DNA of 64,000 nt from positions 1,736,001-1,800,000 of the forward strand of contig NZ_CP021404.1 in NCBI RefSeq assembly GCF_002504165.1. The letters are read 5' to 3'. Numbering within the stretch: position 1 is the stretch's first letter; the number at the start of each line of letters is the position of its first letter. The notes beneath the pieces were generated by a model. That model saw nothing but the letters and a program-made list of their open reading frames with translations. It did not search any database and was not told the DNA's origin. This document shows, piece after piece, positions 5,856 to 25,088 of this stretch. The position numbers and the translations under genes were made by a program. The stretch is from Pacificitalea manganoxidans. GTDB lineage: Bacteria > Pseudomonadota > Alphaproteobacteria > Rhodobacterales > Rhodobacteraceae.

Positions 5856-6079
5856 TGGCTGCCCATCAGAACGCTAAGGTCTGGTGGCTGAGCCGCACCA
5901 TCTGGTTCAACGTCGCGATTGGCATGGTCGGGATCGGCAGCGAGTTGATGATCGTGGCCGACTACCTGCCGCAGGAGTGGCAGGCACCGGCACGGCTGGG
6001 CCTGTCGCTGCTGACTGCCGCGGGCAATGTCATCCTACGCGGCCTTACCCGCCAGCCCGTGACGCGGAGCCCGGCGTGA
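5855..6079 (+). CDS. Small membrane protein beside endolysin (holin candidate)
   Basis: The 74-residue protein has two hydrophobic segments (about 16-36 and 46-62) separated by a short polar turn. The start ATG 5855 overlaps the endolysin stop. The size, topology and place between endolysin and Rz-like gene fit a class II holin, though no family signature is recognised. The gene ends in a GTGA overlap with the Rz-like gene, which marks a compact lysis cassette. Confidence 0.55.
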   Translation: MAAHQNAKVWWLSRTIWFNVAIGMVGIGSELMIVADYLPQEWQAPARLGLSLLTAAGNVILRGLTRQPVTRSPA

Positions 6080-6339
6080 GCGCACTGCTGGCTTGGGTGG
6101 CAGGCACCCGCGCAGGACGGGCGCTGAGCGCCGCCCTGACGACCGTGGCCGCGTTGGCGCTGGCGCTATGGGTCGCATTCACCAAGGGCAAACGGGAGGC
6201 AGGGCAGAGCCATGCGCGCGAGGATCACAAGCGAGCGGAGGCGCTGCGGCGTCGGGTGCAGGCGGCGCGCGATCACAGTCGGAGCGATAAGCGTGGCCCT
6301 GATGAGCGGCTGCGCGAGCACGGGCGGCTCCGTGACTGA
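6076..6339 (+). CDS. Rz-like inner-membrane spanin subunit
   Basis: The 87-residue protein, starting at GTG 6076 in a GTGA overlap, has one N-terminal membrane segment (about 12-36) and then a long charged helix (KRAEALRRRVQAARDHS). That is the topology of i-spanins such as lambda Rz, which span the periplasm and disrupt the outer membrane after murein digestion. A lipoprotein frame (6212-6460) overlaps its 3' half in another frame, the usual Rz/Rz1 arrangement. Identity rests on topology and context. Confidence 0.6.
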   Translation: MSALLAWVAGTRAGRALSAALTTVAALALALWVAFTKGKREAGQSHAREDHKRAEALRRRVQAARDHSRSDKRGPDERLREHGRLRD

Positions 6340-6460
6340 GCGCGCACTCTGCGACGAGCTCCGCCGCGATCTGCCGAGCTGGTCGCGCGCCGACACCGCG
6401 CAGTCGCGGCGCGAGGGGGCGGATTTCCTCGACACATTCGCCGCCGCATGCCCCGGGTAA
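6212..6460 (+). CDS. Rz1-like outer-membrane lipoprotein spanin subunit (overlapping frame)
   Basis: In a frame overlapping the Rz-like gene by 128 bases, an 82-residue protein contains a hydrophobic stretch ending in a lipobox (SVALMSGC), so the mature lipoprotein would start CASTGG. O-spanins such as Rz1 are encoded out of frame inside or across Rz. The N-terminus before the signal is Arg-rich and the start at 6212 is uncertain; a downstream non-ATG start is possible. The mature part is longer than lambda Rz1 and not proline-rich. Confidence 0.55.
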   Translation: MRARITSERRRCGVGCRRRAITVGAISVALMSGCASTGGSVTERALCDELRRDLPSWSRADTAQSRREGADFLDTFAAACPG

Positions 6461-6576
6461 TGGGTCCTTCTCAGGCCCGGGCGGCCTGCGGGTAGCAGGG
6501 CAGCGCAGGAGTTTATTTCTGCGTGGGCGCTGGGATCGCGGCTTTTTATTATATCTGAGCCAAGCGGGCAGGGGCG

Positions 6577-7107
6577 ATGAGCAACAGGATCGGACGGGGA
6601 CAGACCCTCAACCGCACGGAGATGGCCGATCATCTGGGGATTGCCATGCCGACGCTCGACGATTGGGTGCGGCGCGGCTGCCCGGTCGTGTCGCGGGGCG
6701 GCCGGGGCCGGGCCTGGCAATATAACACCGCCGATGTCCGCGAGTGGCGCGATCAGGATATTCGCGAAGAGATGGCCGGCACCGCCACCGCCAGCACCGA
6801 TGAGCTCAAGCGCCGCAAGCTGCAGGCCGAGACCGAGCAGGCGGAGCTGGATCTGGCGCGGGCCAAGGGGCAGGTCGTGCCGGTGGCGCAGTTCGAGCGT
6901 GCCATGTCGATCGCCTTTGGCGAGGTGCGCGCCCGGCTGCGCAATGTGGTGCCGAGCCGGGCCGGGCGGCGGCTGGTGGGCGAGGGCGACGAGACCCGGA
7001 TCAAGGCGGTGCTGCGCGAGGAGATCGACCAGGTGCTGGAGGCGCTCGCCGATGATGCGCTGATCGCCGAGGAGGATCTCGTCATCGATGCCGAGGACGA
7101 CGAATGA
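6577..7107 (+). CDS. Terminase small subunit (Nu1-like)
   Basis: The 176-residue protein has an N-terminal winged helix-turn-helix typical of Nu1 (NRTEMADHLGIAMPTLDDWV, about residues 12-31) and a Lys/Glu-rich helical middle (LKRRKLQAETEQAELDL) used in other Nu1-like proteins for oligomerisation. It binds the packaging-initiation site and presents DNA to TerL. It overlaps terL by ATGA. The 116 bases before it contain an AT-rich run (CTTTTTATTATATC near 6541-6555) unlike its surroundings, which could be a promoter or part of a cos/pac region. Confidence 0.8.
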   Translation: MSNRIGRGQTLNRTEMADHLGIAMPTLDDWVRRGCPVVSRGGRGRAWQYNTADVREWRDQDIREEMAGTATASTDELKRRKLQAETEQAELDLARAKGQVVPVAQFERAMSIAFGEVRARLRNVVPSRAGRRLVGEGDETRIKAVLREEIDQVLEALADDALIAEEDLVIDAEDDE

Positions 7108-9134
7108 CCGTCTTTGATCGCAAGCTCCGATCCGTAGGCCAGTTCGGCAATGTGTTTGGTCTGCTGGGCGCGGCGGCACGGGCGCAGTCCTTCCTGCGCC
7201 CCCCGCCTGATCTGACGCCGTCAGCTTGGGCGGAGGCCAATATTCAAATCCCGATCGGCAATGCGGTGCCCGGCCTGATCCGGTTCGACAACGCGCCCTA
7301 TCAGCGCGAGCCACTGGATATGACCGCGAACCCCGCCTGTACCCGCATCACGCTGATGTGGGGCGCGCAGGTCGGCAAGACCCAGACCGCGCTCTGCGCT
7401 CAGGCCTTCCGGGTGGCCTTCGACCCGGTGTCGCAGATCATGATGCAGCCCAGCCAGGGCGATCTGCACACCTGGCTCGAGACCAAGTTCAACCCGCTGG
7501 TCGAGGCCAACGACACGCTGCAGGAGTTGATCGCAAAGCCGCGCGGGCGCGATGGCGTCAATAACCAGCGCATGAAAAGCTATCCCGGCGGTTTCATGAT
7601 GTTCAGTTGGTCGGGATCGCCCAAGACCATGCGGGGCCGTTCGGCGCCGTTTATCGTCTGCGATGAGACCGACGGCTACGACCGCACCCATGAGGGTCAT
7701 CCGGTGGGGCTGCTGTTCCAGCGTGCCGCGACCTTTGGCGATCAGCGTCTGCTCATGGAGATCAGCACGCCCACGATCAAGGATGCCAGCTGGATCGAGG
7801 GGGCGTTCGAGCAGGGCGATCAACGCCGCTATCATGTGGTCTGCCCGCATTGCGGCCATCACCAGACCCTCGACTGGGCCCATGTCAGCTGGGAGAAGGA
7901 TGCAAATGGCGCGCATTTGCCGCAAACCGCGAGCTATCTCTGCGCGGGGCCCGGCTGCGGCACCGCTTGGAGCGATGGCGAGCGCATCGCCGCGATCCGT
8001 GACGCTGAGCGGCTCGGCGCGGGCTGGAAGGCAGCGCGGCCGTTCCGGGGGCATGCCTCCTATCACCTGAGCGAGCTTTACAGTTGCTTTCGGCGGCTGT
8101 CGGACATCGTGCAATCCTTCCTCGACAAAAAGGCGGCGAATGATCTGCAGACCTTCATCAACGTCTCGCTGGCCGAAACCTGGGAGGAGGAGGGCGAGCA
8201 GGTCGATAGCGCGGAGCTGATCCAGCGCGCTCAGGCCTTTGCCGCGCCGGTGCCGCAAGGTGCGGTGCTGCTGACCGCCGGGATCGACATGCAGGAGGAC
8301 CGGCTCGAGGTCGAGGTGGTGGGCTGGGGCCTGGGCGAGGAAAGCTGGTCGGTCGATTATCAGGTGCTCTGGGGTGATCCGATGCGCGCCGATGTCTGGG
8401 CCGATCTCGATGATCTGCTCGATAGCAGCTATCTGCACCAATCCGGCGCGCAGCTGCCGATTGCCAGTGCGGCGCTCGACACAGGCGGCACGGGCGGCAT
8501 GACCACTGCCGCCTATGAGTATGTGCGCACGCGGAAGGGCCGGCGGCTTTTCGCGATCAAGGGTGTGGGCGGTTGGGGGCGACCGATCGTCACCGCACCC
8601 AGCCGCAAGCGCACCGGGCGCGGCGCGCGCCCCGTCGATCTGTTCAATGTCGGCGTAGATGAAGCCAAGGTCGTGGTGATGCGGCGTCTGGGCATCACCG
8701 CACCGGGGCCGGGCCACTGCCACTTTCCACTAAGCCGCGACCCGGAATGGTATGCCCAGCTCACAGCCGAACAACTGCGCACCCGCATGCTGAAGGGCTA
8801 TGCGGTGCGCGAATGGCATCAGCGCCGACCGCGCAACGAGGCCTTCGATTGCCGGGTCTATGCGCTGGCGGCGCTGAAGATCCTGAACCCTAACCTCAAG
8901 AAGCTGGCGGACCGGCTGGGGCTGGCCGCGCCGCAATCAGCGCCGCACACCCCGCCAGTGGCGGACGCTCCCACCGCGTCGGAGGAGCGCGCGCCTGCGC
9001 CCAAGTTGCGCCGCCGGTCGAGCCGCAAGCCGCCAGAGGAAACTGCGATGGCAATGGGCGAAGATGCCGCCAAGCCCCGCCGGCGCGCCAAGCGTCGCAA
9101 GCGCCGGGGTGGTGGCTGGATGAACGAATGGTGA
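7104..9134 (+). CDS. Terminase large subunit (lambda GpA family)
   Basis: The 676-residue protein has a Walker-A-like motif MWGAQVGKTQ at about residues 85-94 and a Walker B in PFIVCDETDGYD near residue 185, giving the packaging ATPase. Cysteine pairs (CPHCGHH and CAGPGCG) follow, as in GpA-type terminases, and the nuclease region begins with AGIDMQEDRLEVEV. The basic C-terminal tail (KPRRRAKRRKRRGGG) may bind DNA or the portal. It pumps the genome into the prohead. The segment 9027-9041, coding for RKPPEE, is a diverged copy of the late-module DNA motif. Confidence 0.92.
   Translation: MTVFDRKLRSVGQFGNVFGLLGAAARAQSFLRPPPDLTPSAWAEANIQIPIGNAVPGLIRFDNAPYQREPLDMTANPACTRITLMWGAQVGKTQTALCAQAFRVAFDPVSQIMMQPSQGDLHTWLETKFNPLVEANDTLQELIAKPRGRDGVNNQRMKSYPGGFMMFSWSGSPKTMRGRSAPFIVCDETDGYDRTHEGHPVGLLFQRAATFGDQRLLMEISTPTIKDASWIEGAFEQGDQRRYHVVCPHCGHHQTLDWAHVSWEKDANGAHLPQTASYLCAGPGCGTAWSDGERIAAIRDAERLGAGWKAARPFRGHASYHLSELYSCFRRLSDIVQSFLDKKAANDLQTFINVSLAETWEEEGEQVDSAELIQRAQAFAAPVPQGAVLLTAGIDMQEDRLEVEVVGWGLGEESWSVDYQVLWGDPMRADVWADLDDLLDSSYLHQSGAQLPIASAALDTGGTGGMTTAAYEYVRTRKGRRLFAIKGVGGWGRPIVTAPSRKRTGRGARPVDLFNVGVDEAKVVVMRRLGITAPGPGHCHFPLSRDPEWYAQLTAEQLRTRMLKGYAVREWHQRRPRNEAFDCRVYALAALKILNPNLKKLADRLGLAAPQSAPHTPPVADAPTASEERAPAPKLRRRSSRKPPEETAMAMGEDAAKPRRRAKRRKRRGGGWMNEW
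9027..9055 (+). promoter_or_regulatory. Phage late-module motif, diverged copy 5 (inside terL)
   Basis: AAGCCGCCAGAGGAA (9027-9041) matches the core CGCCAGAGGA, and CAAT stands where other copies have CGAT. It lies in coding sequence 98 bases before the next gene, so it may be a chance or decayed copy. Confidence 0.3.
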
Positions 9135-9138
9135 GCCC

Positions 9139-9675
9139 GTGACCCGAACCCTCCCGAAGCAGATTACCGCTGGCGAGACGCTGGCATGGCCGATCACGCT
9201 GACCGCCTATCCAGCAGGCGACTGGACGTTGACGCTGATCCTGCGTGGTGCCGGAGCCATCGACCTGACCGCCGAGGCCGATGGCGCGTCACATCTGCTG
9301 CGTGCCGACGCGGCGCAGACCACCGCCTGGGTGCCGGGTCGCTACTGGTATGTCCTGCGGGTGAGCGATGGCACGGATGTGCTGGGGCTGGAGGAGGGCA
9401 CGTTGGAAATCCGCGCCGATCTCGCCAGCCTCGAGGCGGGCCATGACGGGCGCGATCATGTCGCACGGGTGCTGGCCGCGATCGAGGCGGTAATCGAGAA
9501 CCGGGCCACCATCGATCAAGAGCGCTACCGCATTAACAACCGCGAGCTGCAGCGCACGCCGTTGGGCGAGTTGCTGAAACTGCGCGACCGCTACACCCGC
9601 GAAGCGCAGCGCAAGGCGATGGCCGCGCGGGGGCAGTCCCTGCTGGGCCGCAAGATCCATACGAGGTTCGTCTGA
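9139..9675 (+). CDS. Phage head-tail connector-position protein, two domains, unknown
   Basis: The 178-residue protein starts with GTG 9139. Its first 90 residues are beta-rich and Ig-like (TLTAYPAGDWTLTLILRG), and its last 80 are helical, with a RYRINNRELQRTPLGELLKL core. It lies exactly where lambda has gpW, between TerL and portal, so a head-completion role is possible. The C-terminal pattern is common beside portal genes in alphaproteobacterial prophages, from memory, but I cannot name the family. It is coupled to the portal gene, whose ATG overlaps its stop. Confidence 0.7.
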   Translation: MTRTLPKQITAGETLAWPITLTAYPAGDWTLTLILRGAGAIDLTAEADGASHLLRADAAQTTAWVPGRYWYVLRVSDGTDVLGLEEGTLEIRADLASLEAGHDGRDHVARVLAAIEAVIENRATIDQERYRINNRELQRTPLGELLKLRDRYTREAQRKAMAARGQSLLGRKIHTRFV

Positions 9676-11273
9676 TGTTGGGCTGGCGTCGCGGCTCTGC
9701 CGCATCCGTCCCTGCATCGGCTCCCGAACCTGCCAAAGGCCGGCCGCTGGCGACATCCCGACCCCGACGGATGCCAGGGGTCGGACGGGCGCTGGCCCGG
9801 CTCTATGACGCGGCCAAGAGCGACCGGCTGACCGGCAATTGGGGCACCCAGCCATTGACCGCCGATGAGGTGGTGCGCCGCAACCTGCGCTCGCTGGTGG
9901 CACGCTCGCGCGAGCAGGCTGCCAATAACGACTATGCCCGCAGGTTCCTCAAGATGTGCCGCCAGAACATCGTCGGGCCGCGCGGCGTGCTGTTGCAAGC
10001 GCAGGCAAAGGATCCCGGCGGTGCGCTCGACACGCTGGCAAACGATGCGATCGAGGCCGCCTGGTCAGAGTGGTGCCGCCCCGGCAATTGCGACGTCACC
10101 GGCCGCCAGTCGCTGCGCGCGATCCAGGCACAGGCGGTGGTGAGCATGGCGCGCGATGGCGAGTATATGATCCGGCTGGTGACCGGCACGGCGGCGGGCG
10201 ATTGGGGGCTGGCGCTCCAAGTGCTCGATCCGCAGCGCTGTCCGGTCGATTACGACGTGAAGAAGCTGCGCGGCGGCGGCTTTATCCGGCACGGCATCGA
10301 GTTCAACGCCTGGGGGCGGCCTGTGGCGTACCACTTCACCACTGCTTCCGCCGAGGATGATGACGACGCCTATCTGCGCCAAGGTCGGGCGTTCGTGCGG
10401 ATCCCGGCGGATCAGATCGTGCATGGTTTTGAGCCGGAGATGACTGGCCAGAAGCGCGGCCTGCCTTGGATGGCCACGGCGCTTTGGCGGATGCAGATGC
10501 TGGGCGGGTTCGAAAAGGCGGCGCTGGTCAATGCGCGGGCCAGCGCGGCCAAGGGCGGCTGGTTCCAGTGGAAGGAAGGCTTCGGCCCAGATCACGACGA
10601 GGAGGATGGCGATCTGGAAATGGAGGTCAGCCCCGGCATCTGGCAGGAGCTGCCAGAAGGGGTCGAGGCCGTGGCCAATGATCCGCAATATCCCTCGGGC
10701 GAGTTTGCCATGTTCCACAAGGCCATGCTGCGCGGCATGGCTTCGGGGATGAACGTCACATACGTCAATCTCGCCAATGACCTCGAAGGCGTGAACTTCA
10801 GTTCTATCCGCCAGGGCACGCTCGATGAGCGTGAGCATTGGAAAGAGATGCAAGAAGGCCTGATCGAGCAGCTGCTGGCGCCGATCTTCGAGGCTTGGCT
10901 GCGCCGCGCGCTGCTCAAGGGGCGGATTGTCGTTAATGGTAAGCCGCTGCGCGCCGAACGGCTGGAGAAGTATCGCGCAGTGGTCTGGCAACCGCGGCGC
11001 TGGGACTGGATCGATCCCAATGCCGATGTGAAGGCGGCGGTGACCAGCAAGAACAACCTGCTGGCCAGCCCCTCGCAGATCATCCGCGATCGCGGGCAGG
11101 ACCCCGAAACCATATGGCGCGAGATCGGCCGCGACATCGCTGCAATGCGCGGCGCCGGCATCGACGACCGCTTCATCGAGATCGCCTTGGGCATGAAGGT
11201 CGCCCCGCAGGGCGAGGGTGAAGGCGGCGATGAGGGGGCTGCGCCGGGTTCCCGCAAACCGCCAGAGGACTGA
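9675..11273 (+). CDS. Portal protein (lambda gpB family)
   Basis: The 532-residue protein fits the lambda-type portal family in length and pattern, with ARDNDYAR-like motif NNDYARRFLKMCRQNIVGP near residues 84-102, a DPQRCP strand, and the conserved VNFSSIRQGTLDEREHWKEM in the last third. Twelve copies form the ring at the unique vertex through which DNA is packed. A long stop-free antisense frame here is a GC artefact. The last codons (RKPPED) include a copy of the late-module DNA motif that precedes the capsid gene. Confidence 0.9.
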   Translation: MLGWRRGSAASVPASAPEPAKGRPLATSRPRRMPGVGRALARLYDAAKSDRLTGNWGTQPLTADEVVRRNLRSLVARSREQAANNDYARRFLKMCRQNIVGPRGVLLQAQAKDPGGALDTLANDAIEAAWSEWCRPGNCDVTGRQSLRAIQAQAVVSMARDGEYMIRLVTGTAAGDWGLALQVLDPQRCPVDYDVKKLRGGGFIRHGIEFNAWGRPVAYHFTTASAEDDDDAYLRQGRAFVRIPADQIVHGFEPEMTGQKRGLPWMATALWRMQMLGGFEKAALVNARASAAKGGWFQWKEGFGPDHDEEDGDLEMEVSPGIWQELPEGVEAVANDPQYPSGEFAMFHKAMLRGMASGMNVTYVNLANDLEGVNFSSIRQGTLDEREHWKEMQEGLIEQLLAPIFEAWLRRALLKGRIVVNGKPLRAERLEKYRAVVWQPRRWDWIDPNADVKAAVTSKNNLLASPSQIIRDRGQDPETIWREIGRDIAAMRGAGIDDRFIEIALGMKVAPQGEGEGGDEGAAPGSRKPPED

Positions 11274-11284
11274 GCGTCACCGAT
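11256..11284 (+). promoter_or_regulatory. Phage late-module motif, copy 2
   Basis: AAACCGCCAGAGGAC (11256-11270), partly inside the end of the portal gene, is followed at bases 11-14 by CGAT (11281-11284). It lies 54 bases before the capsid fusion start chosen here. Confidence 0.45.
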
Positions 11285-11324
11285 GTTCGATGTTGGGCCC
11301 AGCAGACGAACACAAGGGGCGATT

Positions 11325-13325
11325 ATGGCGGATGATCATCGACAGGCGGGAGGGCTGGCTGCCGCGCTGCTGGGGCATTGCCTAACCCGTGCGGTGACGG
11401 CGGAGCAGATCAATGCCGGCGGCACCCAGGGGCAGCTGCGACGGACGGGCGAGGTTCGCAATGTCGACACCGAAGCGCGAACGGTGGAGCTGGCTTTCTC
11501 CAGCGAGACTGAGGTCGAGCGCTGGTTTGGCACGGAGGTGCTCGACCATCGCCCTGGCGCGATGCGCTCCGAACGGCTGGCGGGCGGCGCGGCGCTTTTG
11601 GTCAATCACGACTGGCACGATCAGATCGGCGTCGTCGACCGGGTGCTCGAGGGCACGGATGCGCATCGTGCGGTGGTGCGCTTCGGGCGGGGGCCGCGCG
11701 CCGACGAGATTTTCCGCGACGTGCAGGACGGCATCCGGCGCCATGTCAGCGTCGGCTACGTCGTGCACCGGGTCGAGGTGGAGACCCGCAAGGGTCAGAG
11801 CGACCTGGTGCGGATCACCGATTGGGAGCCGCTGGAGATCTCGATCGTCAGCGTGCCTGCCGACCCCAATGTGGGCGTCGGCCGCAGCCTGGAGACGGGA
11901 TCGCCGTCCGGGGCAACACTCAACGAACAAGGGAACACTGGGATGCATACAAAGATCACCCGTGACGCATCGGGCAATCTGGTCCGGGCCAAGGTCGATG
12001 ACGACGGCAATATCGTCGAGGTCCTCGAGATCATCGAACGCGCGGGCGAGGATGCCGCCGCCGCGCAGCGGCGCGGCTCGGAAGCCGAACGCGCCCGGGT
12101 CCGTGCGATCATCGAGATGGGCGATCAATACGGCGCCCCGGATCTGGCCCGTGATCATGTCCGCGATGGCCGCACGGCGGCGGAAATGCAGGCCGCGCTG
12201 CTGGCGCATCTGGCCGAGGGCCGCAGCGCGCCGCTGACAGAGGCCGAGGGCGCCGATATCGGTCTGACCGGGCGTGAGGCCGAGAGCTTCAGCTTTACCC
12301 GTGCCCTGCGCGCGCTGGCCAATCCCGCAGACCGCCGCGCGCAGGAAGCCGCCGCGTTCGAGTTCGAAGCCTCTGCCGCCGCCGCACAGCGCTCGGGCCG
12401 CGATCCGCAGGGCATTCTGGTGCCGGCGGATGTGCTGCGCCGCGCGCTCAACACCGCCAGCGATGGCTCGGCGGCAGGCGACACCGGCGGTTATTCCGTC
12501 GACAATGAGCTGATGTCGCAGAGCTTCGTGGAGATGCTGCGCAACCGGACGGTGGCCATGCAGCTGGGCCGGGTGATGGGGGGCCTCGTCGGCAATATCA
12601 CCGTGCCGCGGCAAGCAGCTGGTGCGTCGGGTTACTGGATCGGCGAGGATGAGGACGCCACCGAGGACAACCTCGAACTCGACCAGATCGGGATGAGCCC
12701 GAAGACGGTCGCAGCCTATTCCGAGATTACCCGCCGCCTGCTGATGCAGTCGAGCCTCGATGTCGAAGCTATCGTGCGCGCGGATCTCGCCTCGGCGCTG
12801 GGTCTGACCATCGACAAGGCTTTCTTCTACGGCACCGGCTCCGACAACCAGCCGCGCGGCATCAAGAATTATGCGGGCATCAACGCAGTGGACTTCGGCA
12901 CCGATGGGGCGGGGGCGGGCACCGGGCAAATGCCGAGCTACGCTGAGATCGTGGCAATGGAGAGTGCCATCGCTGCCGACAACGCCGATGTAAACGCCAT
13001 GGCCTATGTGATGAACTCCGGCATGCGCGGGCATTGCAAGACCACGCCCAAGTTCACCGGCGGTGCCGACCAAGGGCTGATCTGGGAGCCGGGCGGCACG
13101 GTCAACGGCTACCGCTCGGAGGTCACCAACCAGATTGCCGCGGGGGATCTGTTCTTTGGCAACTTCGCCGATGCGCTGATCGGCATGTGGGGCGGGCTGG
13201 AGATCAACGTCGATCCCTACACCCATTCCAAGAAGGGCCGCCTGCGGGTGGTGGCGATGCAGGATGTCGACTTCGTTCTGCGCCGGCTCGAGAGCTTCTG
13301 CTACGGCGCCGACAGCACCGCCTGA
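11325..13325 (+). CDS. Fused prohead protease and HK97-type major capsid protein
   Basis: One frame of 666 residues joins a U35-type prohead protease to a capsid. The protease part holds the histidine in LLVNHDWHDQIGVV and the serine in RRHVSVGYVV. A charged helical linker (scaffold or delta region) follows, and the last 330 residues show the HK97 capsid pattern, including STVRADLASALG-like IVRADLASALGLTIDKAFFY and a GTGSDNQPRGI motif. ATG 11325 was chosen because AAGGGGCG precedes it; the frame is open back to 11283. Protease and capsid must be separated by self-cleavage for assembly. Fused forms are known in other phages and prophages. Confidence 0.9.
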   Translation: MADDHRQAGGLAAALLGHCLTRAVTAEQINAGGTQGQLRRTGEVRNVDTEARTVELAFSSETEVERWFGTEVLDHRPGAMRSERLAGGAALLVNHDWHDQIGVVDRVLEGTDAHRAVVRFGRGPRADEIFRDVQDGIRRHVSVGYVVHRVEVETRKGQSDLVRITDWEPLEISIVSVPADPNVGVGRSLETGSPSGATLNEQGNTGMHTKITRDASGNLVRAKVDDDGNIVEVLEIIERAGEDAAAAQRRGSEAERARVRAIIEMGDQYGAPDLARDHVRDGRTAAEMQAALLAHLAEGRSAPLTEAEGADIGLTGREAESFSFTRALRALANPADRRAQEAAAFEFEASAAAAQRSGRDPQGILVPADVLRRALNTASDGSAAGDTGGYSVDNELMSQSFVEMLRNRTVAMQLGRVMGGLVGNITVPRQAAGASGYWIGEDEDATEDNLELDQIGMSPKTVAAYSEITRRLLMQSSLDVEAIVRADLASALGLTIDKAFFYGTGSDNQPRGIKNYAGINAVDFGTDGAGAGTGQMPSYAEIVAMESAIAADNADVNAMAYVMNSGMRGHCKTTPKFTGGADQGLIWEPGGTVNGYRSEVTNQIAAGDLFFGNFADALIGMWGGLEINVDPYTHSKKGRLRVVAMQDVDFVLRRLESFCYGADSTA

Positions 13326-13341
13326 CCCTGATCCTCCCGAT

Positions 13342-13367
13342 GCGGCAGGGCCTGCGGGTTCTGCCGC
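13342..13367 (+). other. Hairpin after the capsid gene
   Basis: GCGGCAG (13342-13348) pairs with CTGCCGC (13361-13367) across a 12-base loop. No U-tract follows, so it is more likely to stabilise the capsid message or slow polymerase than to end transcription. Confidence 0.35.
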
Positions 13368-13394
13368 TCCATCCTCATATTCGGAGCCAAATGC

Positions 13395-13730
13395 ATGAAA
13401 ACCTTCGATCTGGAGATCACTTCCGCCGTCGTCATCGACGGTAAGATCCGCGCAGCGGGCAGCCGCGTCACCGCGAACCGCCGCCTTGCGGTGAACCTGC
13501 TGCAACGGGGAAAGGCGCAGGTTGCCTCGGGCGAGGGCCCGTTGCGGATGAGCGGCCCCATCGCCTCCGACAGCAGCGCGACCGAGGGAGATGATCTGCC
13601 GCTGGCCGACCACACCGTGGCGGAGCTTGTCGAGCTGGCGGCAGAATACGGCATCGAGGGCGCAGGCCGGATGAAGAAGGCCGAGCTGGTCGCCGCCATC
13701 GAAGCCGCCGAGGAAGGCGCGCAGGACTGA
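13395..13730 (+). CDS. FI-like head protein with C-terminal SAP/Rho-N-type domain
   Basis: The 111-residue protein has a beta-rich start (KTFDLEITSAVVIDGKI) and a C-terminal helix-turn-helix of the Rho-N/SAP kind (VAELVELAAEYGIEGAGRMK). Small proteins of this layout follow capsid genes in many lambda-type heads, near the place of gpFI. The function is probably in packaging or head completion. The stop overlaps the next ATG. The family call is by position and C-terminal pattern only. Confidence 0.65.
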   Translation: MKTFDLEITSAVVIDGKIRAAGSRVTANRRLAVNLLQRGKAQVASGEGPLRMSGPIASDSSATEGDDLPLADHTVAELVELAAEYGIEGAGRMKKAELVAAIEAAEEGAQD

Positions 13731-14050
13731 TGCCCGCGCCGTCCTGGGAACAGCTCGACAGCTTTCTACAGCCCGGTGATTTTGCTGTGCTGGCTGAGGT
13801 CGCGCTGCAGGGCGGCGGCATCCGCGCGGTGCTGGGGCTCTTCGATGCGCCCTACTACAACGCGGAGCTCGGTGAATACGATTTCGACACGCGGCAACCG
13901 CGCTTCACCTGCACGGCGGCGGAGGCGGGCGGCATCGGGCGCGGCGATATCCTGAGCCTTGCTGGAACGAGCTATGACGTGCTGACCGCGCCGCAGGAGG
14001 ACGGCACCGGCCTCGCGGTTCTCGAACTGGCTGAGCGCGCAGGCACCTAA
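13730..14050 (+). CDS. Head-tail joining protein (lambda gpFII-like)
   Basis: The 106-residue protein resembles gpFII-type attachment proteins: an N-terminal helix (WEQLDSFLQPGDFA), a beta domain with LGLFDAPYYNAELGEYDFDT, and a final beta-sandwich strand pattern (RGDILSLAGTSYDVL). Such proteins cap the filled head and join the tail. It follows the capsid and FI-like genes in lambda order, which supports the call. Confidence 0.7.
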   Translation: MPAPSWEQLDSFLQPGDFAVLAEVALQGGGIRAVLGLFDAPYYNAELGEYDFDTRQPRFTCTAAEAGGIGRGDILSLAGTSYDVLTAPQEDGTGLAVLELAERAGT

Positions 14051-14060
14051 GGAGAGGCAG

Positions 14061-14285
14061 ATGGCGAACACCGAACAGCGCATCCTCGAGCGTGACCAGA
14101 CCGGGCGGCTTCTGACCGTGCAGACCAATGGCGGAACCGTCGTGATCGAGGTCGAGCACGCGCCCGGCATCTGGATCACCGCTGACACGATCGCGGCGGA
14201 TTATGTGGGCGAGATCCGAGGCATCGGCGCCGCCCGCTTCCGCCTGACGCCCTCAGACGGCGCAAGCTGGCAGGTGCACCCATGA
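14061..14285 (+). CDS. Small phage protein, unknown
   Basis: The 74-residue protein begins MANTEQRILERDQTGRLLTV and is mostly beta-strand in pattern. A good ribosome-binding site (AAGGAGAGG) precedes ATG 14061. It overlaps the following spike gene by ATGA. No family is recognised; its place between head-completion and spike genes suggests a small structural or chaperone role. Confidence 0.6.
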   Translation: MANTEQRILERDQTGRLLTVQTNGGTVVIEVEHAPGIWITADTIAADYVGEIRGIGAARFRLTPSDGASWQVHP

Positions 14286-14659
14286 GCGTCACCGGCGCAA
14301 TCCTGACCCCCGGCGTGGTGTTCGCGCCGCGGCTGCCGGTGCTCCCGCGTTTTCCACTGCAGCCCGAAGGGTTGTTCCGGGACGGCACGGCGGGCGCTCT
14401 TATGGACGCGAGCGCGCTGGCCCTGGCCGGCCGGGCGCTGTTCTACACGGATGCTGGCAACACCGCGGCGGGACCGGGCGAGAACGTCCATACGTTCCTC
14501 GACACCGCCCGCGCGCGCCTATGGTCATCTGGCGCAGCCTATGGTGCCCTCGAAGGCCACCACGCCACGCAGGCCACGACCAGCCAACAGCCGGTGCTGG
14601 GGAGTGCGCCAGTGGAGGTGCGGAACCTGCTTGCAGACAGCGCCGACTTCTCGGGATGA
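14282..14659 (+). CDS. Spike/adhesin-type phage protein, N-terminal part up to in-frame TGA
   Basis: This 125-residue frame has the usual opening of phage decorated spikes: a short N-terminal anchor, then GLFRDGTAGALMDASAL, ALEGHHATQATTSQQP, and the typical RNLLADSADFSG. It stops at TGA 14657-14659 exactly where related proteins continue with tryptophan after DFS-x. The frame downstream (14660-15910) is the same frame and continues the protein without a break. Thus one gene of about 542 residues is interrupted by a single stop codon: a nonsense mutation, a sequencing error, or read-through. I compared frames by codon position to exclude a frameshift. Confidence 0.75.
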   Translation: MSVTGAILTPGVVFAPRLPVLPRFPLQPEGLFRDGTAGALMDASALALAGRALFYTDAGNTAAGPGENVHTFLDTARARLWSSGAAYGALEGHHATQATTSQQPVLGSAPVEVRNLLADSADFSG

Positions 14660-14788
14660 GGGATACTCGGTGCTACAGTAACGCCTCGTCCCGTATCCGG
14701 GAAAGATGCTGACTTCCTAGCTGCTGATGCCAAGGGATTTGAGCGATACACCGGTTCTGTTATTCAAGTCGTTCCGTATGGCACCGGT

Positions 14789-15910
14789 TTGCACACCGTA
14801 TGGGCCGATCTTGAAAAAGGGACCGCGCGTTATGCGGTAATCGGCATCGACAATGGTTCAGGGTATAAAGGTAACGCCGCCTTCGATCTACAAACCGGAA
14901 CGGTCATAGGGTTTTCTGCTCACCCCGTAATCGGGATCATTGATGCTCGCGTAGTCGCGCGAACAGGTGGCGGATATCGGTGCGAGGTCGTATTTTCCCG
15001 AACCAGCACCGCGCCAAAGGCAATACGCATACAGAGTTCAATTGGCGAGCCTATCCGTGGCGGAAGTCATGGTTACGACACGGACGGTGACGGTGTGTCT
15101 GGCATCTACCTATACCGCGCACAGCTGGAGACTGGTGATACGTCAACTGCCTTTCAGAAGACTGACGGCGATCACCTTGTCATCGTCGAAGCGGGTGCGC
15201 CTTCCTTTAATTATCTGCGCTTTGATACCGTTGATGATAAACTGCCCCAAGTCATGCCCGATGGCCTCAACGGCGATGTGATGATCTTTGGACGTAAAGG
15301 CGCGTGGATCGACACTGGCGTGACGATTGCACCGGGCGGCACCCTGACCGCAATCAATGGCGCCGATAGCGTGGGCACTGCGGGCATCATTCCCGTCCTT
15401 GGTGATATCGTCGGGTGGATCGCGCTTGATCGGCCCATCACGGCCTGGGAGCAAGCGCAGCTATTGGCCTATTACGCAAAGCGTGGGGCAGGCGGTTTGT
15501 ATACGCTTGGGCCGGAATTGGTTGTCAACGGCACGTTTGACACCGACCTTAGCGGTTGGACTTTGACTACCAACGCAACGCAGTCCGGCGGTCAGGCGCT
15601 CCTTGGCAATGAGGCCTATCTTCGTCAGCCTGCCATACCGTCTGGCACCGAGGGTTTCGCGGTGATCGAGTGGGATCAGGTGATCACCGAGGGAACCAGA
15701 ACTAGGCTCAGAGGTCGCAACGAGAACGACTCGGGCTATGTCGATAACGTTATATTGGGCTCCGTAACCATTAGTGGCTACGCGACAGGTAGCGGTCATT
15801 TCAGGGCTATGGTTCCCACTGAGGACGGCTACCTGTTGTCCCTTGTTACAGAAGGCGCGAACTCCGCCCAGGTAGATAATCTGTCCGTAAAGCGCTTGGT
15901 GAAATCATGA
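14789..15910 (+). CDS. Spike/adhesin-type phage protein, C-terminal part with lectin-like domains
   Basis: This is the continuation of the gene above. The open frame extends back to 14660; TTG 14789 is only a nominal start, and no good ribosome-binding site was seen. It holds a ligand-binding-like region, the FDTVDDKLPQVMPDGLNGD and RPITAWEQAQLLAYY patterns of laminin-G/concanavalin-like phage spikes, and a C-terminal carbohydrate-binding-like module (NGTFDTDLSGWTLTTNATQS). Base composition is clearly less GC-rich than its neighbours, suggesting recent exchange of the receptor-binding part. It overlaps the next gene by ATGA, so translation coupling would need ribosomes to reach this end. Confidence 0.7.
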   Translation: MHTVWADLEKGTARYAVIGIDNGSGYKGNAAFDLQTGTVIGFSAHPVIGIIDARVVARTGGGYRCEVVFSRTSTAPKAIRIQSSIGEPIRGGSHGYDTDGDGVSGIYLYRAQLETGDTSTAFQKTDGDHLVIVEAGAPSFNYLRFDTVDDKLPQVMPDGLNGDVMIFGRKGAWIDTGVTIAPGGTLTAINGADSVGTAGIIPVLGDIVGWIALDRPITAWEQAQLLAYYAKRGAGGLYTLGPELVVNGTFDTDLSGWTLTTNATQSGGQALLGNEAYLRQPAIPSGTEGFAVIEWDQVITEGTRTRLRGRNENDSGYVDNVILGSVTISGYATGSGHFRAMVPTEDGYLLSLVTEGANSAQVDNLSVKRLVKS

Positions 15911-16329
15911 CCCATTATTCCGCTGTCCTGATCATCCCTGCCGATCTGCTCGACAAGGCCAATGCTCTCGGCGCCGCAATGGGACACGGGCCGGAGAGCT
16001 ACTCCGTGCCGCTCTCTGATGGCGAAGGCGTCACGCATTTCGGTGCACGAGCTCGGGTCTTGCCTGCCTTCTCCGCCATGTTGGCGGCGGCAGGGCGCAT
16101 CCCGCAGGAGAACTGGCCTCTCTACGGTCTCGATGCGGCACAGGTTACAGGGGGCGGCTCGGCGGTCGCGGCTCTTGACCTAGCCGCCTACGATCTGACC
16201 GAGGCTGACCGCGACGAGGTCATCACGCAACTGATCTTCGACATTCGAGCGGAGGGTGCAGCTGATCCGCGCGATCATTTCGTAGATGTTTGCGCGGTGA
16301 ACGGGTTGACGCCGCATGATCGAGCTTGA
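15907..16329 (+). CDS. Phage protein of unknown function next to the spike gene
   Basis: The 140-residue protein begins MTHYSAVLIIPADLLDKANA and looks like a compact alpha-beta protein. It is coupled to the spike gene by an ATGA overlap and overlaps the following Z-like gene by 14 bases. No family is recognised. A spike-associated chaperone is possible because of the coupling, but there is no direct evidence. Confidence 0.6.
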   Translation: MTHYSAVLIIPADLLDKANALGAAMGHGPESYSVPLSDGEGVTHFGARARVLPAFSAMLAAAGRIPQENWPLYGLDAAQVTGGGSAVAALDLAAYDLTEADRDEVITQLIFDIRAEGAADPRDHFVDVCAVNGLTPHDRA

Positions 16330-16867
16330 TCTCGATCCCGGCCAGCTGCGCCGCATTGGTGCGGAGTTCGGCGCAAGCGAGCAGGACCTGCGCCGCGCCT
16401 TCGCCCGCGCGCTGTCGCGCACCGCTCGCAGCCTGCGCAGTCAGGCGCGGCAGGCGCTGCGTCAGGGGCTGGGGCTGCGCGCGGCGTCGGTCCTGAAGGC
16501 ACGGCTGAAACTCGACCGGCTGCGTGCCCAGGGCAACCGGATGGGGGCTGCCCAGCTCTGGGTTGGGACCAACGATCTGCGCGCCGACGCGTTCAAGGGT
16601 AAGCCGCGACGCGGCGCGGGCGGGGCACAGGTCGGGGGGCACAGCTGGCCCGCTGGCTTCGTCGCCCGGGGCGCGGGGAGCGGCAAGGTCATGGTGTTCG
16701 AGCGGAGGGGTCGCGCCCGGCTGCCGATCGAGGTCGCCACCGAGCCGGTCCATGAGGAGATGGTCGAGATCCTCGACCGTCAGGTCTTTGCCGAGGCGCG
16801 GCAGCTGGTGATGAAGAACTTCCGAGCCGAGGTGAAAACTCGGACGATCTATAAGGTGGGCCGATGA
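16316..16867 (+). CDS. Minor tail protein (lambda gpZ-like)
   Basis: The 183-residue protein matches the Minor_tail_Z pattern: a helical N-terminus rich in Arg (ALSRTARSLRSQARQALRQG), then LWVGTNDLRADAFKGKPRR, and a C-terminal helix (MVEILDRQVFAEARQLVMKN). Z-type proteins sit at the head-proximal tail end and help DNA pass or position correctly. Gene order (before a U-like and the V gene) agrees with tail-completion genes. It overlaps its successor by ATGA. Confidence 0.75.
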   Translation: MIELDLDPGQLRRIGAEFGASEQDLRRAFARALSRTARSLRSQARQALRQGLGLRAASVLKARLKLDRLRAQGNRMGAAQLWVGTNDLRADAFKGKPRRGAGGAQVGGHSWPAGFVARGAGSGKVMVFERRGRARLPIEVATEPVHEEMVEILDRQVFAEARQLVMKNFRAEVKTRTIYKVGR

Positions 16868-18907: not shown

Positions 18908-20518
18908 CTACAAATCCAGTGCGCGCTCTACGTCCGAGGTCGACAATGGTGCGAAATCTAAGAGAAGTTCCGCTGACGACATTTCATCCGTGGCAAATTC
19001 TTCTCTCATAAGGGCAACCTCCCGCGGAAGCTGCCTATTTCGTTTATTCATGATCTTCTCCGCCTTGTTAATCTCCTGCAGAACAACAGGCTGCACGTGA
19101 GGGTCGATGCGGCATAACTCCCGGGCGAGGAAAGCATAAGCCCTCAGGTAAAGGTCAGCACGTCGGCTCTCAACCGCGCGATCCATCGCCTTTTGGTATT
19201 CGGACGCGCCCTGGTCGGCTTTACCCTCCCTGAAGAGAATTAGACCTCTTGTTGCCATGTTCGCTATATCATTCTTGTCTTCTGAAGTTTGCCGAGCTCT
19301 CTCGGCAAATTTCTTCGCTGAAGGAATATCTCCCTGATAGGCGTGAAGTACGGATAAGTTATTTAGCAAAGCAGAGTTGCCAGGGTTGCTCGCAAGGCCT
19401 CTTTGGGCCAAAGCTATCCCTCGAATAGGCGTATTCATTCTCGCTGTAGACAAGAAGGATCCAAAAATCGCAGGCCTCACACTGAAGGGCTCCAGCTCCT
19501 GCCATTCCTCACACGCATCAAGCGCACTTCGTAACTCGCCCTTCCAGTAACAGCTAAGGGCTCGCGCCTCGGTCGCCCCAGAAATATCCGGCAGCACATC
19601 CTCCCTCGAAAAGTCTCGAGTACGCTCAGCAAGAAATTCCACTTGCGCAGCCGCATTCTCCGTAGGATTGCCTGCCGCCAATTTTATTTTCTTCAACGCG
19701 GCTCGCCGTCCGCCGGCTTCAAATTCTAGAGTCGCGAGTTCTGCCGCCAGCTCTGACCGGTCCAACACCGACAATGCCTTGTCCTCAGCGAGCGTCTTTG
19801 ACTGCCTCCATTGTGTAATCGGCCTCCCACAGATGCTTGAGATTGCCAACTCGGCGGACTTTAACCAAGGATCCGTTTGATGTCTCGGGGATCTTTGCAG
19901 CAAAGCAAGCGCTTGATCTGGTTTGTCAATGTGGCAGTAGAAACGCGCAGCAGAGCGCAAGACATATCGGCTATTCGGAGCAAGCGCTGCGGCGCGTTTC
20001 AAAAGCACTCGGCTCTTTTCACCCTGCCCAAGATTGGTGTGGAGCAAAGCCGTTTCTGCTAATAGCAACCCATCTCGCGGATTTAGGCGTAGAAGTATCT
20101 TCCTCTTGCGAATGTCCTCCCTGATGGTCGCCGCTTGATGTGCGAAACCGTCCGAGGTATCGTGAACTGCTCCATCGAGAATGTTATTTGCAAGGGCCCG
20201 CATAAGGGGCCCGCTTTCTTCGTCAGACGCAACTTGAAACGCTGCATTCTGGACGTCCCTGTCGAGCTCGCGACCTGCTATGAATGCTATGGCTAAAAGC
20301 TCTTCTCCAGCCTGTGGCTCACCGCTCAGCCTCCATGCCCTTCGGCAGTTCTCCAGAGAGGTTTCTATCGATTTCTCATTCTCAGCACGAGAAATTTTCC
20401 AAGTTTTTGAAAGCACTGTTGACCCGGGCCTATCGAACATACCTTGGGTTCGGGCCCTTGAAATCGATATCCACCGTGGGAGAACGTGTCGATCGTCCAG
20501 CTCACCATTTTCGATCAC
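18908..20518 (-). CDS. TPR-repeat protein paired with a protein kinase
   Basis: The 536-residue soluble protein is helical throughout and contains TPR-like helix pairs in two blocks, for example ALLHTNLGQGEKSRVLLKRA near residue 165 and LNNLSVLHAYQGDIPSAKKF near residue 395. The first 130 residues are not recognised. No enzymatic motif was seen. It overlaps the kinase gene by four bases (ATGA), so the two are made together. TPR proteins usually serve as binding platforms, so it may be the substrate, sensor or effector partner of the kinase. Codon use is less GC-rich than the phage genes on both sides, a sign of transfer. Confidence 0.8.
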   Translation of the reverse strand: MIENGELDDRHVLPRWISISRARTQGMFDRPGSTVLSKTWKISRAENEKSIETSLENCRRAWRLSGEPQAGEELLAIAFIAGRELDRDVQNAAFQVASDEESGPLMRALANNILDGAVHDTSDGFAHQAATIREDIRKRKILLRLNPRDGLLLAETALLHTNLGQGEKSRVLLKRAAALAPNSRYVLRSAARFYCHIDKPDQALALLQRSPRHQTDPWLKSAELAISSICGRPITQWRQSKTLAEDKALSVLDRSELAAELATLEFEAGGRRAALKKIKLAAGNPTENAAAQVEFLAERTRDFSREDVLPDISGATEARALSCYWKGELRSALDACEEWQELEPFSVRPAIFGSFLSTARMNTPIRGIALAQRGLASNPGNSALLNNLSVLHAYQGDIPSAKKFAERARQTSEDKNDIANMATRGLILFREGKADQGASEYQKAMDRAVESRRADLYLRAYAFLARELCRIDPHVQPVVLQEINKAEKIMNKRNRQLPREVALMREEFATDEMSSAELLLDFAPLSTSDVERALDL

Positions 20519-21753
20519 ACCGAACCTACCTTCCGTGCTTTAATCGAGGCAAGCAACGCAAGCCGGTCAAAAATGGAGACAAACCTTTCCAACGAGTAGA
20601 TGCGGCCGCCACCATTTCTGGTAAGCGGATGACCACGGACTGCAGGGTCAGGGTTTGCAAGTTGGCTGGCACACAAGACCAGCTCATCCGCGATCTCACC
20701 TTCGCCAAGCGCTTCCTTGAGTTCGAGGAGCATCTCTGAAAAAACATTCTGAAGTACCGGCAGGATTGTCATGTAGTTTCCTTCCCACCCACCTCCGAAG
20801 AGGTACGGCCAGTTCTCTCGGGAGAGCTTTCTTAGAAAGAGCTGCGTCGCCCCCATTTCAAGTCCGAAGAAAAAAATCATACTTCCTAACATGTAGCAGT
20901 CGCTGCTCATACGGCGCTGAAAAGCATCTTTGTTCACGAAGTTGTAAAGAATCTCTAAGGGGGCGTACGATCGGTCCCCCGTGAAGACCTCGTCGTCAAA
21001 CGGCCCGGGATGGTCTTCACAAACTGAGCGCCCGAGGTCGGCAAGTTTGAAACCGGTTTGTTCCCCGAAATTTAGGATGTTGGAAGGCTTAAGGTCCTGA
21101 TGGGTTACTCGCCTTGAATGAAGTTGATTCAGCCCTACTGACGTATGGTGTAGTGCACGTAACCACCATACAAATTTTTGGCCTGCTTGAACGTTCGGTA
21201 GACTACGGCGAACATCACCTTCAGCAAGCTCGAAGATCAGGTATGGGACTACGTCCGCCAAACCTTCGCCAAGACGTTCCTCACCGCTGTCCAAGGCAAC
21301 TACGATCCTGTCCAGACGCGCCCCGGCACACAGATCGAGGATCGACACCTCAAACTGATGCTCAGCAGTAACTCGATGAAGCGCGGCCATCACATGAGCC
21401 TCACGCAAAGGCTCTGTGAGATCGATCGCTTTTAGAAAAGCTTGCTGGCCCTCTTTCTCCACAAGATATGTCTTTGAAAAGTTCCCGCCAGTACCATTGT
21501 ATACCTCTTTTGCGACACCAGTCTTTGGATCCCAACCAATCGCTCGAACGACTTTCCACCCTGACTGCAGGGTCTTGCCTTCCAAACGCCATGCTCCCGC
21601 CACGCCCAGATCGTTCAATAGCTTACTCTCCAAAACCCTTCGCTTGCCACTGTGGCACTTCAGAGCCTTTTTGCGCAAGGTGTAGCGCTCTCGTGAGTGC
21701 GTTGTGTGCGAACCCCGCCCCCTATTCCAATCACAGCGATACCAGGCTGCCAC
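20515..21753 (-). CDS. Hanks-type serine/threonine protein kinase
   Basis: All key kinase elements are present: glycine-rich loop TGGNFSKTYLV (about 88-98), ATP-anchoring Lys108 in AFLKAI, helix-C Glu118, catalytic loop THQDLKPSN (217-225, HQD in place of HRD), metal-binding DLG in KLADLG (DLG for DFG), an APE-like APLE at 264-267, and the helix-F Asp285 in SDCYMLG. No membrane segment is seen. The frame opens at GTG 21753, but the first 50 residues look poor and a start nearer residue 40-50 is likely. The pair with the TPR protein in a tail operon suggests an anti-phage or exclusion system; that is inference. Confidence 0.85.
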   Translation of the reverse strand: MAAWYRCDWNRGRGSHTTHSRERYTLRKKALKCHSGKRRVLESKLLNDLGVAGAWRLEGKTLQSGWKVVRAIGWDPKTGVAKEVYNGTGGNFSKTYLVEKEGQQAFLKAIDLTEPLREAHVMAALHRVTAEHQFEVSILDLCAGARLDRIVVALDSGEERLGEGLADVVPYLIFELAEGDVRRSLPNVQAGQKFVWWLRALHHTSVGLNQLHSRRVTHQDLKPSNILNFGEQTGFKLADLGRSVCEDHPGPFDDEVFTGDRSYAPLEILYNFVNKDAFQRRMSSDCYMLGSMIFFFGLEMGATQLFLRKLSRENWPYLFGGGWEGNYMTILPVLQNVFSEMLLELKEALGEGEIADELVLCASQLANPDPAVRGHPLTRNGGGRIYSLERFVSIFDRLALLASIKARKVGSV

Positions 21754-22327: not shown

Positions 22328-23223
22328 TGGCGGGGTTTACTGCAGTCGACCTGTCGCAGCTGGCCCCACCGGAGGTGGTCGAGCCGCTGGATTATGAGGG
22401 CATCCTGGGGGCAATGGTCAGCGACCTGCGTAATCGCGCGCCGGAGTTCGATGCTCTGGTGGAGAGTGACCCGGCCTTCAAAATCCTCGAGGTGGCAGCC
22501 TATCGCGAGCTGCTGCTGCGCCAGCGGGTCAACGAGGCTGCGCAGGGCGTGATGCTGGCCTATGCCGGTGGCGCGGATCTCGATCAGATCGGTGGGAACT
22601 TCAGCGTGGCGCGGCAGGTTCTTGATCCCGGTGATCCGGCGGCGCTCCCGCCGGTGCCCGCGACCTATGAGAGCGACACCGACTTCCGGCGTCGCATTCA
22701 GCTGTCGCCCGAGGGCTACACGGTGGCGGGCTCTGCCGGCAGCTATGTGTTCCACGCTCTGGGCGCGGATGCGGCGGTGCGCGATGCGCAGGCGGTAAGC
22801 CCGACGCCGGGTGCGGTGACGGTTTACCTGCTGGCGCGGGACGGCGATGGTGCGGCAGGCGTCGATCTGGTCGATGCGGTGCAGGCTGTGCTGTCGGCCG
22901 ATGCGGTGCGCCCCATGACGGACAGTGTGACCGTGCAGTCGGCGGTCATTACCTCCTACGCTGTGACCGCAGCGCTGACGGTCTATCCCGGGCCCGATGC
23001 CGAGGTAGTGCGACAGACGGCGGTGACGGCTGCCGAGACCTATGTCGCCGCGCAGCACCGGATTGGCCATGATGTGACCCTCTCGGGGCTCTATGCGGCG
23101 CTGCACCGTCCCGGCGTGCAGAAGGTCACCCTGACCAGCCCCGCAGCAGATCTGGTGATCGGGGCAGGTGAGGCCGCGTGGTGCAGCGGCGTCACCGTCA
23201 CCTTGGGCGGCACCGATGTCTGA
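22327..23223 (+). CDS. Baseplate protein J (P2 gpJ-like)
   Basis: The 298-residue protein fits Baseplate_J: VEPLDYEGILGAMVSDL, then a helical part with LLLRQRVNEAAQGVMLAYA, and the GADLDQIGGNFSVARQV motif, with the conserved SDTDFRRRIQLSPEGYTVAG. It builds the baseplate periphery with W and I and links fibres to the hub. It overlaps the next gene by eight bases. Confidence 0.92.
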   Translation: MAGFTAVDLSQLAPPEVVEPLDYEGILGAMVSDLRNRAPEFDALVESDPAFKILEVAAYRELLLRQRVNEAAQGVMLAYAGGADLDQIGGNFSVARQVLDPGDPAALPPVPATYESDTDFRRRIQLSPEGYTVAGSAGSYVFHALGADAAVRDAQAVSPTPGAVTVYLLARDGDGAAGVDLVDAVQAVLSADAVRPMTDSVTVQSAVITSYAVTAALTVYPGPDAEVVRQTAVTAAETYVAAQHRIGHDVTLSGLYAALHRPGVQKVTLTSPAADLVIGAGEAAWCSGVTVTLGGTDV

Positions 23224-23761
23224 GCTGCTCCCGCATAATGCCAGTTCAGGCGAACACGCGCTCGACGATACCACCGCCCGGCTGGGCGCGGTGCCCGTGC
23301 CTTTGCGCGATGTCTGGTCAGCGTCTGACTGTCCGGCTCAAGCCCTGCCTTGGCTCGCCTGGGCGCTGTCTGTGGATCTGTGGGAGACCGGGTGGAGCGT
23401 GGAGCAGAAGCGCGGCGCGGTGCGCAGCGCGATCGAGGTGCAGCGCCGCAAGGGCACGATTGGCGCGGTGAAGCAGGCGCTCGAGGCAATCGGTGTCGAT
23501 GCCCGCGTGCTGGAATGGCATCGTCAAGACGATCCCGGTGCTGCCTTCACCTATCAGCTGCTTTTGGAAACCCGCGCCACAGCTATTGGTCTGGGCACGC
23601 TCGATACGTTGATTGCCGCCGTCGATCGGGTCAAATCCCTTCGCTCCCATCTCGACCAAATCCGATTGACCGCCGTCGCCGTGGCCCCGCCGCAAGTCGC
23701 CGTGGTGGGCACCTGCGGCCATGCCATTACCGTGAAATATATCGAGGACAGCGATGCCTGA
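23216..23761 (+). CDS. Tail protein I (P2 gpI-like)
   Basis: The 181-residue protein starts MSELLPHNASSGEHALDDTT and contains the gpI hallmark ALPWLAWALSVDLWETGWS followed by KRGAVRSAIEVQRRKGTIGA. gpI connects the baseplate wedge to the fibre protein. ATG 23216 was chosen because the protein begins directly at the family N-terminus; the frame is open further upstream inside J. It overlaps the fibre gene by eight bases. Confidence 0.9.
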   Translation: MSELLPHNASSGEHALDDTTARLGAVPVPLRDVWSASDCPAQALPWLAWALSVDLWETGWSVEQKRGAVRSAIEVQRRKGTIGAVKQALEAIGVDARVLEWHRQDDPGAAFTYQLLLETRATAIGLGTLDTLIAAVDRVKSLRSHLDQIRLTAVAVAPPQVAVVGTCGHAITVKYIEDSDA

Positions 23762-25088
23762 CTTCCAGACCCTGCATACCGAGGCCGGTCTCGCCGCGAT
23801 CTACGCCGCATCCGGCAGTGAGCAGATCACCCTCACCCATATGGCGGTGGGCGATGGCGGCGGTCTGGACGTCATCCCCGACCCGAGCCAGACCGCGCTG
23901 GTGCGCGAGGTGTTCCGCGCCGAGATCAACCGCGTCTACAAGCCTGACCCCAGTGGCGACCCCACGCGCTTTGCCGCTGAGCTGGTGGTGCCAGCTACCG
24001 AGGGGGGCTTCACCCTGCGCGAGGTTGGTGTGTTCGACGCGGATGGCAGCCTCTTCGCGGTAGGTAACTTGCCGGCCACCTATAAACCCACCGAAGCCGA
24101 TGGCGCCTATGCAGACACTGTCATCCGGCTGGAGTTCATCGTTTCCAACGCCGAGGTGATCACCCTGCGGGTCGATCCCAATGTGGCCGTGGCATCGCAA
24201 CAATGGGTGGTCAATAACATCGTGGCCGCAACGGTGATCCCCGGCGGCACCACGCAGCAGGTGCTGCGCAAGGTCTCCAACGCCGATGGCGATGTGGAAT
24301 GGGCCGATCCGACCGATGCCAATATCACGGTCTCCACGATCGAGGAGCGGCAGGTGCTGGCGGGTGGTCAGACGCAGGTCGATCTGACGTTGACCAACAC
24401 GACTGGCCTTGCGGTTTATATCGAGGGGCTGCGGCTGCCTAATGAGGCGATTGCGGAGGGCTGGCAGCCCGATGGCAGCCTCTCGACCCGGCTGCATCTG
24501 GGGCAGAGCTATCCCGCCGGGTCAGAGCTTATCGCGGTTCAAAATGAGCCGGCCTCAGCATTGCCCGAGGCGCTGCGCAAGGATCAGAACCTCGCCGATG
24601 TGCCCGACAAGGCGGCAGGGCGCGCCAATCTCGGCGTGCCGAGCCTGGATCAGATGCGGCAGCGCACGCCGACCGGCGCGGTTATGGACTTTGCGATGCC
24701 CACCGCACCTGCAGGTTGGCTTAAATGCAATGGCGCTGAGATCAGCCGCACAGTCTATGCCGATCTCTTTAACGCAATCGGCACCATCTGGGGCGGGGGC
24801 AACGGTTCGACGACGTTCAACCTGCCAGACTTCCGTGGGGAATTTCGACGCGGCTGGGATGACGGTCGCGGTATTGATGCGGGGCGTTCCTTCGCCGCCG
24901 CACAGGCCGATGCCTTCCGCGCGCACACGCACCAACTAGTTGGCAATGATGCTGATACCGGTGGTCAGTCGCGGGCGGTGCATATCGACGATGATGGCAA
25001 GGAGGGTCGGATCGACGTGACCGAACCTACCGGAGGTAACGAAACCCGGCCGCGCAATATCGCGGTACTCACCTGCATTAAGTTCTGA
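23754..25088 (+). CDS. Tail fibre protein with gpH-type N-terminus and collar domain
   Basis: The 444-residue protein opens with the tail-fibre N-terminal domain that docks on gpI (LAAIYAASGSEQITLTHMAV and LREVGVFDADGSLFAVGNLP). A repetitive middle follows, with the short fibre motif NLADVPDKAAGRANLGV. It ends in a phage tail collar domain (APAGWLKCNGAEISRTVYAD, NLPDFRGEFRRGWDDGRG). The C-terminal tip presumably binds the receptor. It is a second possible receptor-binding protein beside the spike at 14.3-15.9 kb. Confidence 0.9.
   Translation: MPDFQTLHTEAGLAAIYAASGSEQITLTHMAVGDGGGLDVIPDPSQTALVREVFRAEINRVYKPDPSGDPTRFAAELVVPATEGGFTLREVGVFDADGSLFAVGNLPATYKPTEADGAYADTVIRLEFIVSNAEVITLRVDPNVAVASQQWVVNNIVAATVIPGGTTQQVLRKVSNADGDVEWADPTDANITVSTIEERQVLAGGQTQVDLTLTNTTGLAVYIEGLRLPNEAIAEGWQPDGSLSTRLHLGQSYPAGSELIAVQNEPASALPEALRKDQNLADVPDKAAGRANLGVPSLDQMRQRTPTGAVMDFAMPTAPAGWLKCNGAEISRTVYADLFNAIGTIWGGGNGSTTFNLPDFRGEFRRGWDDGRGIDAGRSFAAAQADAFRAHTHQLVGNDADTGGQSRAVHIDDDGKEGRIDVTEPTGGNETRPRNIAVLTCIKF

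Follow-up and report, generated by a model that had tools for sequence, protein, structure and literature searches.

The spike gene of a Pacificitalea manganoxidans prophage is interrupted by an in-frame TGA, and this raises the question of whether the stop is a recent loss of function, an error in the sequence, or a signal that allows both a short and a long spike protein to be made. The window, as the term is used here, is the whole 64,000-nucleotide stretch of DNA analysed, and its coordinates are used throughout (Table 1). Translation of 14282-15910 gives a frame that runs from an ATG at 14282 through 125 codons to the TGA at 14657-14659, and through a further 416 codons to a second TGA at 15908-15910. 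There is only one such interruption, and the frame is the same before and after it. None of 20,000 mononucleotide shuffles of 14660-15907 is free of stops, and the other five frames of the downstream part contain 8-28 stops; its openness is therefore not due to chance. The downstream part is poorer in G+C (0.56 vs 0.70), and homologues of both halves form one continuous protein. The preliminary description, which had claimed a single TGA within one frame and good protein patterns in both halves, is thus confirmed by translation, by the shuffles and by these homologues.

The same description had proposed a comparison with close prophages, and this comparison is informative. The IMG/VR prophage IMGVR_UViG_2791355035_000001 (L026) has the same genes as the window prophage, with DNA identities of about 94.7% over 4476-15531 and 97.3% over 22839-31692. 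Its spike is one uninterrupted 547-aa frame with tryptophan in the TGA column, and it thus provides the intact orthologue, carrying a sense codon where the window has a stop, by which a pseudogene can be recognised. It is also the only close intact relative (n=1). In searches of phages, plasmids, IMG/VR and GTDB contigs, the whole protein had no relatives other than L026 and L002, a distant homologue located in a tail region, and no other IMG/VR record of the stop site was found with any base at the third codon position. Weak N-terminal matches (L005-L013) were dismissed as unrelated proteins or chance frames.

Table 1. Features of the spike region and prophage boundary, in window coordinates
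Feature	Coordinates	Strand	Remarks
Head closure gene (Hc1, Phage_attach)	13730-14050	+	Left neighbour of module
74-aa gene, phrog_8454 (unknown function), E 9.5e-8	14061-14285	+	Directly upstream of spike, same module
5' part of spike gene; probable attachment part and fibre start	14282-14656	+	125 codons; 89.5% aa identity to start of L026 547-aa protein
Exchanged (mosaic) stretch	about 14540-15900	+	L026 identity drops from about 95% to 55-83%; TGA inside
In-frame TGA	14657-14659	+	Column holds a tryptophan kept in L026, RcapMu, RcWaterboi and Rcc01080
Downstream open part	14660-15910	+	Sugar-binding-type domain, then second region and variable C-terminal region
140-aa gene, unknown function	15907-16329	+	ATGA overlap with spike end; 89% aa identity, L026 only
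Neck1/tail completion gene (gpZ-like)	16316-16867	+	Right neighbour of module
Right attachment repeat, 23 bp	31844-31866		Overlaps 3' end of tRNA-Met 31851-31927

The identity of the protein is seen from the Protein Data Bank, where both the intact L026 protein and the downstream part in the window have matches to Rcc01080 (GhsB), the head spike fibre of RcGTA. The expectation values are 7.1e-10 for a two-sequence profile, 1.9e-9 for the intact relative alone and 1.5e-7 for the window downstream part (PDB 6tb9), and this range of 7.1e-10 to 1.5e-7 supports homology to the sugar-binding domain of Rcc01080/GhsB. The assignment as a spike gene made in the preliminary description therefore holds. 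Weaker matches are to structural proteins of Pseudomonas phages, and the downstream part matches the phrog_5939 tail protein (E 1.8e-7). A tryptophan had been claimed to follow DFS-x in related spikes; the corresponding L026 sequence is ADFTQW, the RcapMu and RcWaterboi proteins share the tryptophan in the same column, and it is also aligned in Rcc01080. Its preservation in RcapMu, RcWaterboi and Rcc01080 argues for a head-spike-fibre-like, sugar-binding protein, and the gene product is probably a head-spike-fibre-like adhesin of a tailed prophage. RcapMu and RcWaterboi relatives of rcc01080 have been reported previously (PMC8601537). The N-terminus is rich in hydrophobic residues and lies outside the region aligned to Rcc01080. 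The structure predicted from the two sequences has a mean pLDDT of 32, too poor for use.

A comparison with L026 along the spike gene reveals an abrupt change. Identity is 90-98% up to about 14540, falls to 55-83% as far as about 15560, gives no clean alignment to about 15900, and is again 85-100% past about 15920. By the Nei-Gojobori method, the flanking genes diverge at silent sites by about 0.06-0.28 and the first 90 spike codons by 0.14; in spike codons 127-416 the value reaches about 2.2, near saturation, with a dN/dS of about 0.08. Silent divergence thus jumps inside this stretch relative to its flanks, which shows that a distant allele was swapped into one lineage, with both alleles long selected as protein downstream of the stop. 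Near-saturated silent divergence and the low dN/dS ratio likewise show that the long protein was under selection until recently. The two phages differ greatly over the last 125 or so spike codons. At 15530-15900, this C-terminal end, a second exchangeable region, has a dN of about 0.7 and keeps the ending '-DN.SVK.LV.S'.

Most of a tailed prophage lies within the window, with genes for terminase, portal, capsid with protease, head closure, the spike module and neck, followed by baseplate, collar fibre, sheath, tape measure and late tail genes. The 23-bp attachment repeat has an identical copy at L129:11046-11068, about 9 kb outside the left edge of the window and adjacent to an integrase gene, so that the two repeats and the integrase define an element of about 40.8 kb. 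The terminase, portal, capsid, connector, sheath, tape measure and baseplate genes are intact, mostly with 96-99% amino acid identity. Since the prophage is bounded by attachment repeats with an integrase and its virion genes are intact, one gene has been hit, and not the whole element. A candidate two-gene anti-phage defence module is inserted in the tail region (18908-21753, minus strand), with matches to PADLOC PDC-M71A (E 1.8e-102) and PDC-M71B (E 9.6e-88) and a kinase-like part; L026 has other DNA there. At 875-1951 and 1962-2474 (both minus strand), a gene matching PADLOC 'beta' (E 8.7e-44), and weakly PD-Lambda-2_C, stands beside an ImmA-like metalloprotease, and the two may form another pair with which the prophage provides defence or immunity.

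Within the prophage, the spike belongs to a three-gene module that sits between the head closure and neck genes. This position is circumstantial evidence for a place on the virion head, and phage homologues of the spike are annotated as tail proteins. The upstream 74-aa gene and the spike share an ATGA, in which the stop of the one overlaps the start codon of the other, and the 74-aa and 140-aa genes, which both overlap the spike in this way, were found only with it. In the relatives with both flanking genes detected (L016-L019 and L027-L030), the neck gene comes directly after the head closure gene, and by this gene order the three-gene module is an insertion. In L031-L038 nothing of the module was detected either, and the 74-aa gene was not found in L016-L019 or L027-L038. 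In RcGTA, a pentamer of the base protein holds one fibre via fibre residues 2-10 (PMC7296036); no base protein of this kind was identified for the window spike. The 74-aa gene is a possible spike base or adaptor, and together the 74-aa and 140-aa genes are candidates for the spike base and a spike assembly protein.

How recent the stop is can be judged from the downstream part, whose 416 codons contain no second stop or frameshift. Neutral drift is expected to produce about 33 new stops per substitution per site; with no other stop present, drift after function was lost can therefore amount to no more than about 0.09 per site. This limit implies that the stop is recent on that scale, that the downstream part is still used, or that the base is an error, and the lack of further decay is also expected from a sequencing error or from read-through that is in use. 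An error of sequencing or assembly, with the gene intact in the organism, is unlikely. It would account for a remaining frame that is perfect and was formerly under selection among intact virion genes, and a single-base difference would be enough. However, an isolated substitution is rarer than an indel in an assembled consensus, the TGA lies outside any long homopolymer, and the gene is single copy in the 8-contig genome, where no second intact spike was found, so that no collapsed repeat lies behind the TGA. None of these points is decisive, but we infer that the base is real.

Programmed or leaky read-through, by which a minor long spike would accompany a major short product, like the coat/A1 proteins of Q-beta, is a very improbable explanation despite the shared frame on both sides of the stop and the conserved downstream part. 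The stop and downstream frame are not conserved together across relatives, since the nearest, L026, has tryptophan instead of a stop at this site. The genome-wide reading of UGA as tryptophan was ruled out, as TGA terminates most genes checked (22 of the 26 window genes that are called with confidence). None of the 46 tRNA genes detected in the host genome has a UCA anticodon, and the sole above-threshold match to the Rfam tRNA-Sec covariance model is a tRNA-Ser(TGA), by which selenocysteine was also rejected. RF2 is present and intact in the host. RNA structure in the 120 nt after the stop is no better than in shuffles (z 0.6), and the tRNAs, the selenocysteine tRNA search and the downstream structure thus yield neither a decoding factor nor a cis element for read-through. 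The base after the TGA is G, a poor context for read-through. The features discussed for suppressor forms of tRNA-Trp are a 4-bp anticodon stem, A9C and G24A (PMC13092985). In the host tRNA-Trp the anticodon is CCA, the anticodon stem has its full 5 bp, and A9 and G24 are both kept, so that it shows none of them; a suppressor tRNA among the 46 tRNAs was accordingly ruled out. Basal decoding of UGA by tRNA-Trp does occur in bacteria (PMC13092985), and in principle it could give a few full-length spikes among many stubs per particle, such that the stop would tune spike number or act as a reversible off-switch for polysaccharide binding; we regard this variant as very doubtful.

The two halves might also be separate genes, with a short protein that works alone and a downstream part translated from an internal start, for which an in-frame TTG (14789), GTG (15095) and ATG (15254) are available. 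However, no Shine-Dalgarno-like sequence precedes any of these three codons, an internal start would lose the first part of the sugar-binding domain, and the L026 gene is continuous, all of which makes this the least plausible of the readings considered.

The explanation that we hold with considerable confidence is that a head-spike-fibre-like gene has recently acquired a nonsense mutation, in a prophage that is otherwise intact. Of the options put forward in the preliminary description, a fresh nonsense mutant is the one favoured, by an intact relative that bears the tryptophan, by purifying selection downstream, by the lack of further decay and by the intact state of the other virion genes; the minor long form made by read-through fares badly, given a stop that is not conserved and a host with ordinary decoding. 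Most likely, then, the stop is an ordinary loss-of-function mutation and not programmed read-through, and the event appears recent because the downstream part keeps the mark of strong past purifying selection without further damage. In the intact spike, the N-terminal part would probably anchor the protein to the capsid, and the C-terminal sugar-binding part would probably grip a host surface polysaccharide. A single-base nonsense change at the conserved tryptophan would end translation after 125 residues. These residues include the presumed anchor and end where the sugar-binding-type domain begins, and the short product should therefore lack binding: the gene should yield no more than a stub that lacks the binding domain, and polysaccharide binding should be lost. 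Should the stop be real, the induced phage would be expected to adsorb less well to cells with the surface polysaccharide that the spike grips, or to have become independent of this polysaccharide.

The observation is thus confirmed but ordinary, and it illustrates on a small scale the loss and exchange of adhesins in temperate phages. The more useful result is the identity of the gene, a spike of the RcGTA head-fibre type in an ordinary prophage head operon, with a binding part that has been exchanged between lineages and, in this copy, probably lost by one base.

Several known systems can be set beside this gene. UGA read-through in the Q-beta coat/A1 gene is established and functional, and there too a gene for a virion protein has an in-frame UGA with a long open frame behind it; in the window, however, the stop is not conserved and no aid to read-through was found. 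L026 shares the prophage type, the module and the gene (70% amino acid identity over the spike, 99% over the capsid), but its spike is uninterrupted and has a different C-terminal end. The tail fibre/minor tail proteins RcapMu58 (AER29981.1) and RcWaterboi 56 have the same domain and tryptophan, and are likewise preceded by a short gene with an overlapping start. In contrast to the window spike, they are uninterrupted proteins of about 325 aa encoded at the genome end beside tail-spike genes, and their short upstream gene has no detectable relation to the 74-aa gene. Rcc01080 itself (PDB 6tb9/6tba; PMC7296036, PMC8601537) belongs to the head fibres that enable RcGTA to attach to the capsule (PMC7296036). 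The window gene differs from it in lying inside a prophage head operon, in being interrupted, and in its length (542 codons vs 325 residues), with an unrelated N-terminus and extra C-terminal domains; the two nevertheless share a homologous domain, the tryptophan at the stop position, and a general plan in which an N-terminal part is followed by a sugar-binding-type domain.
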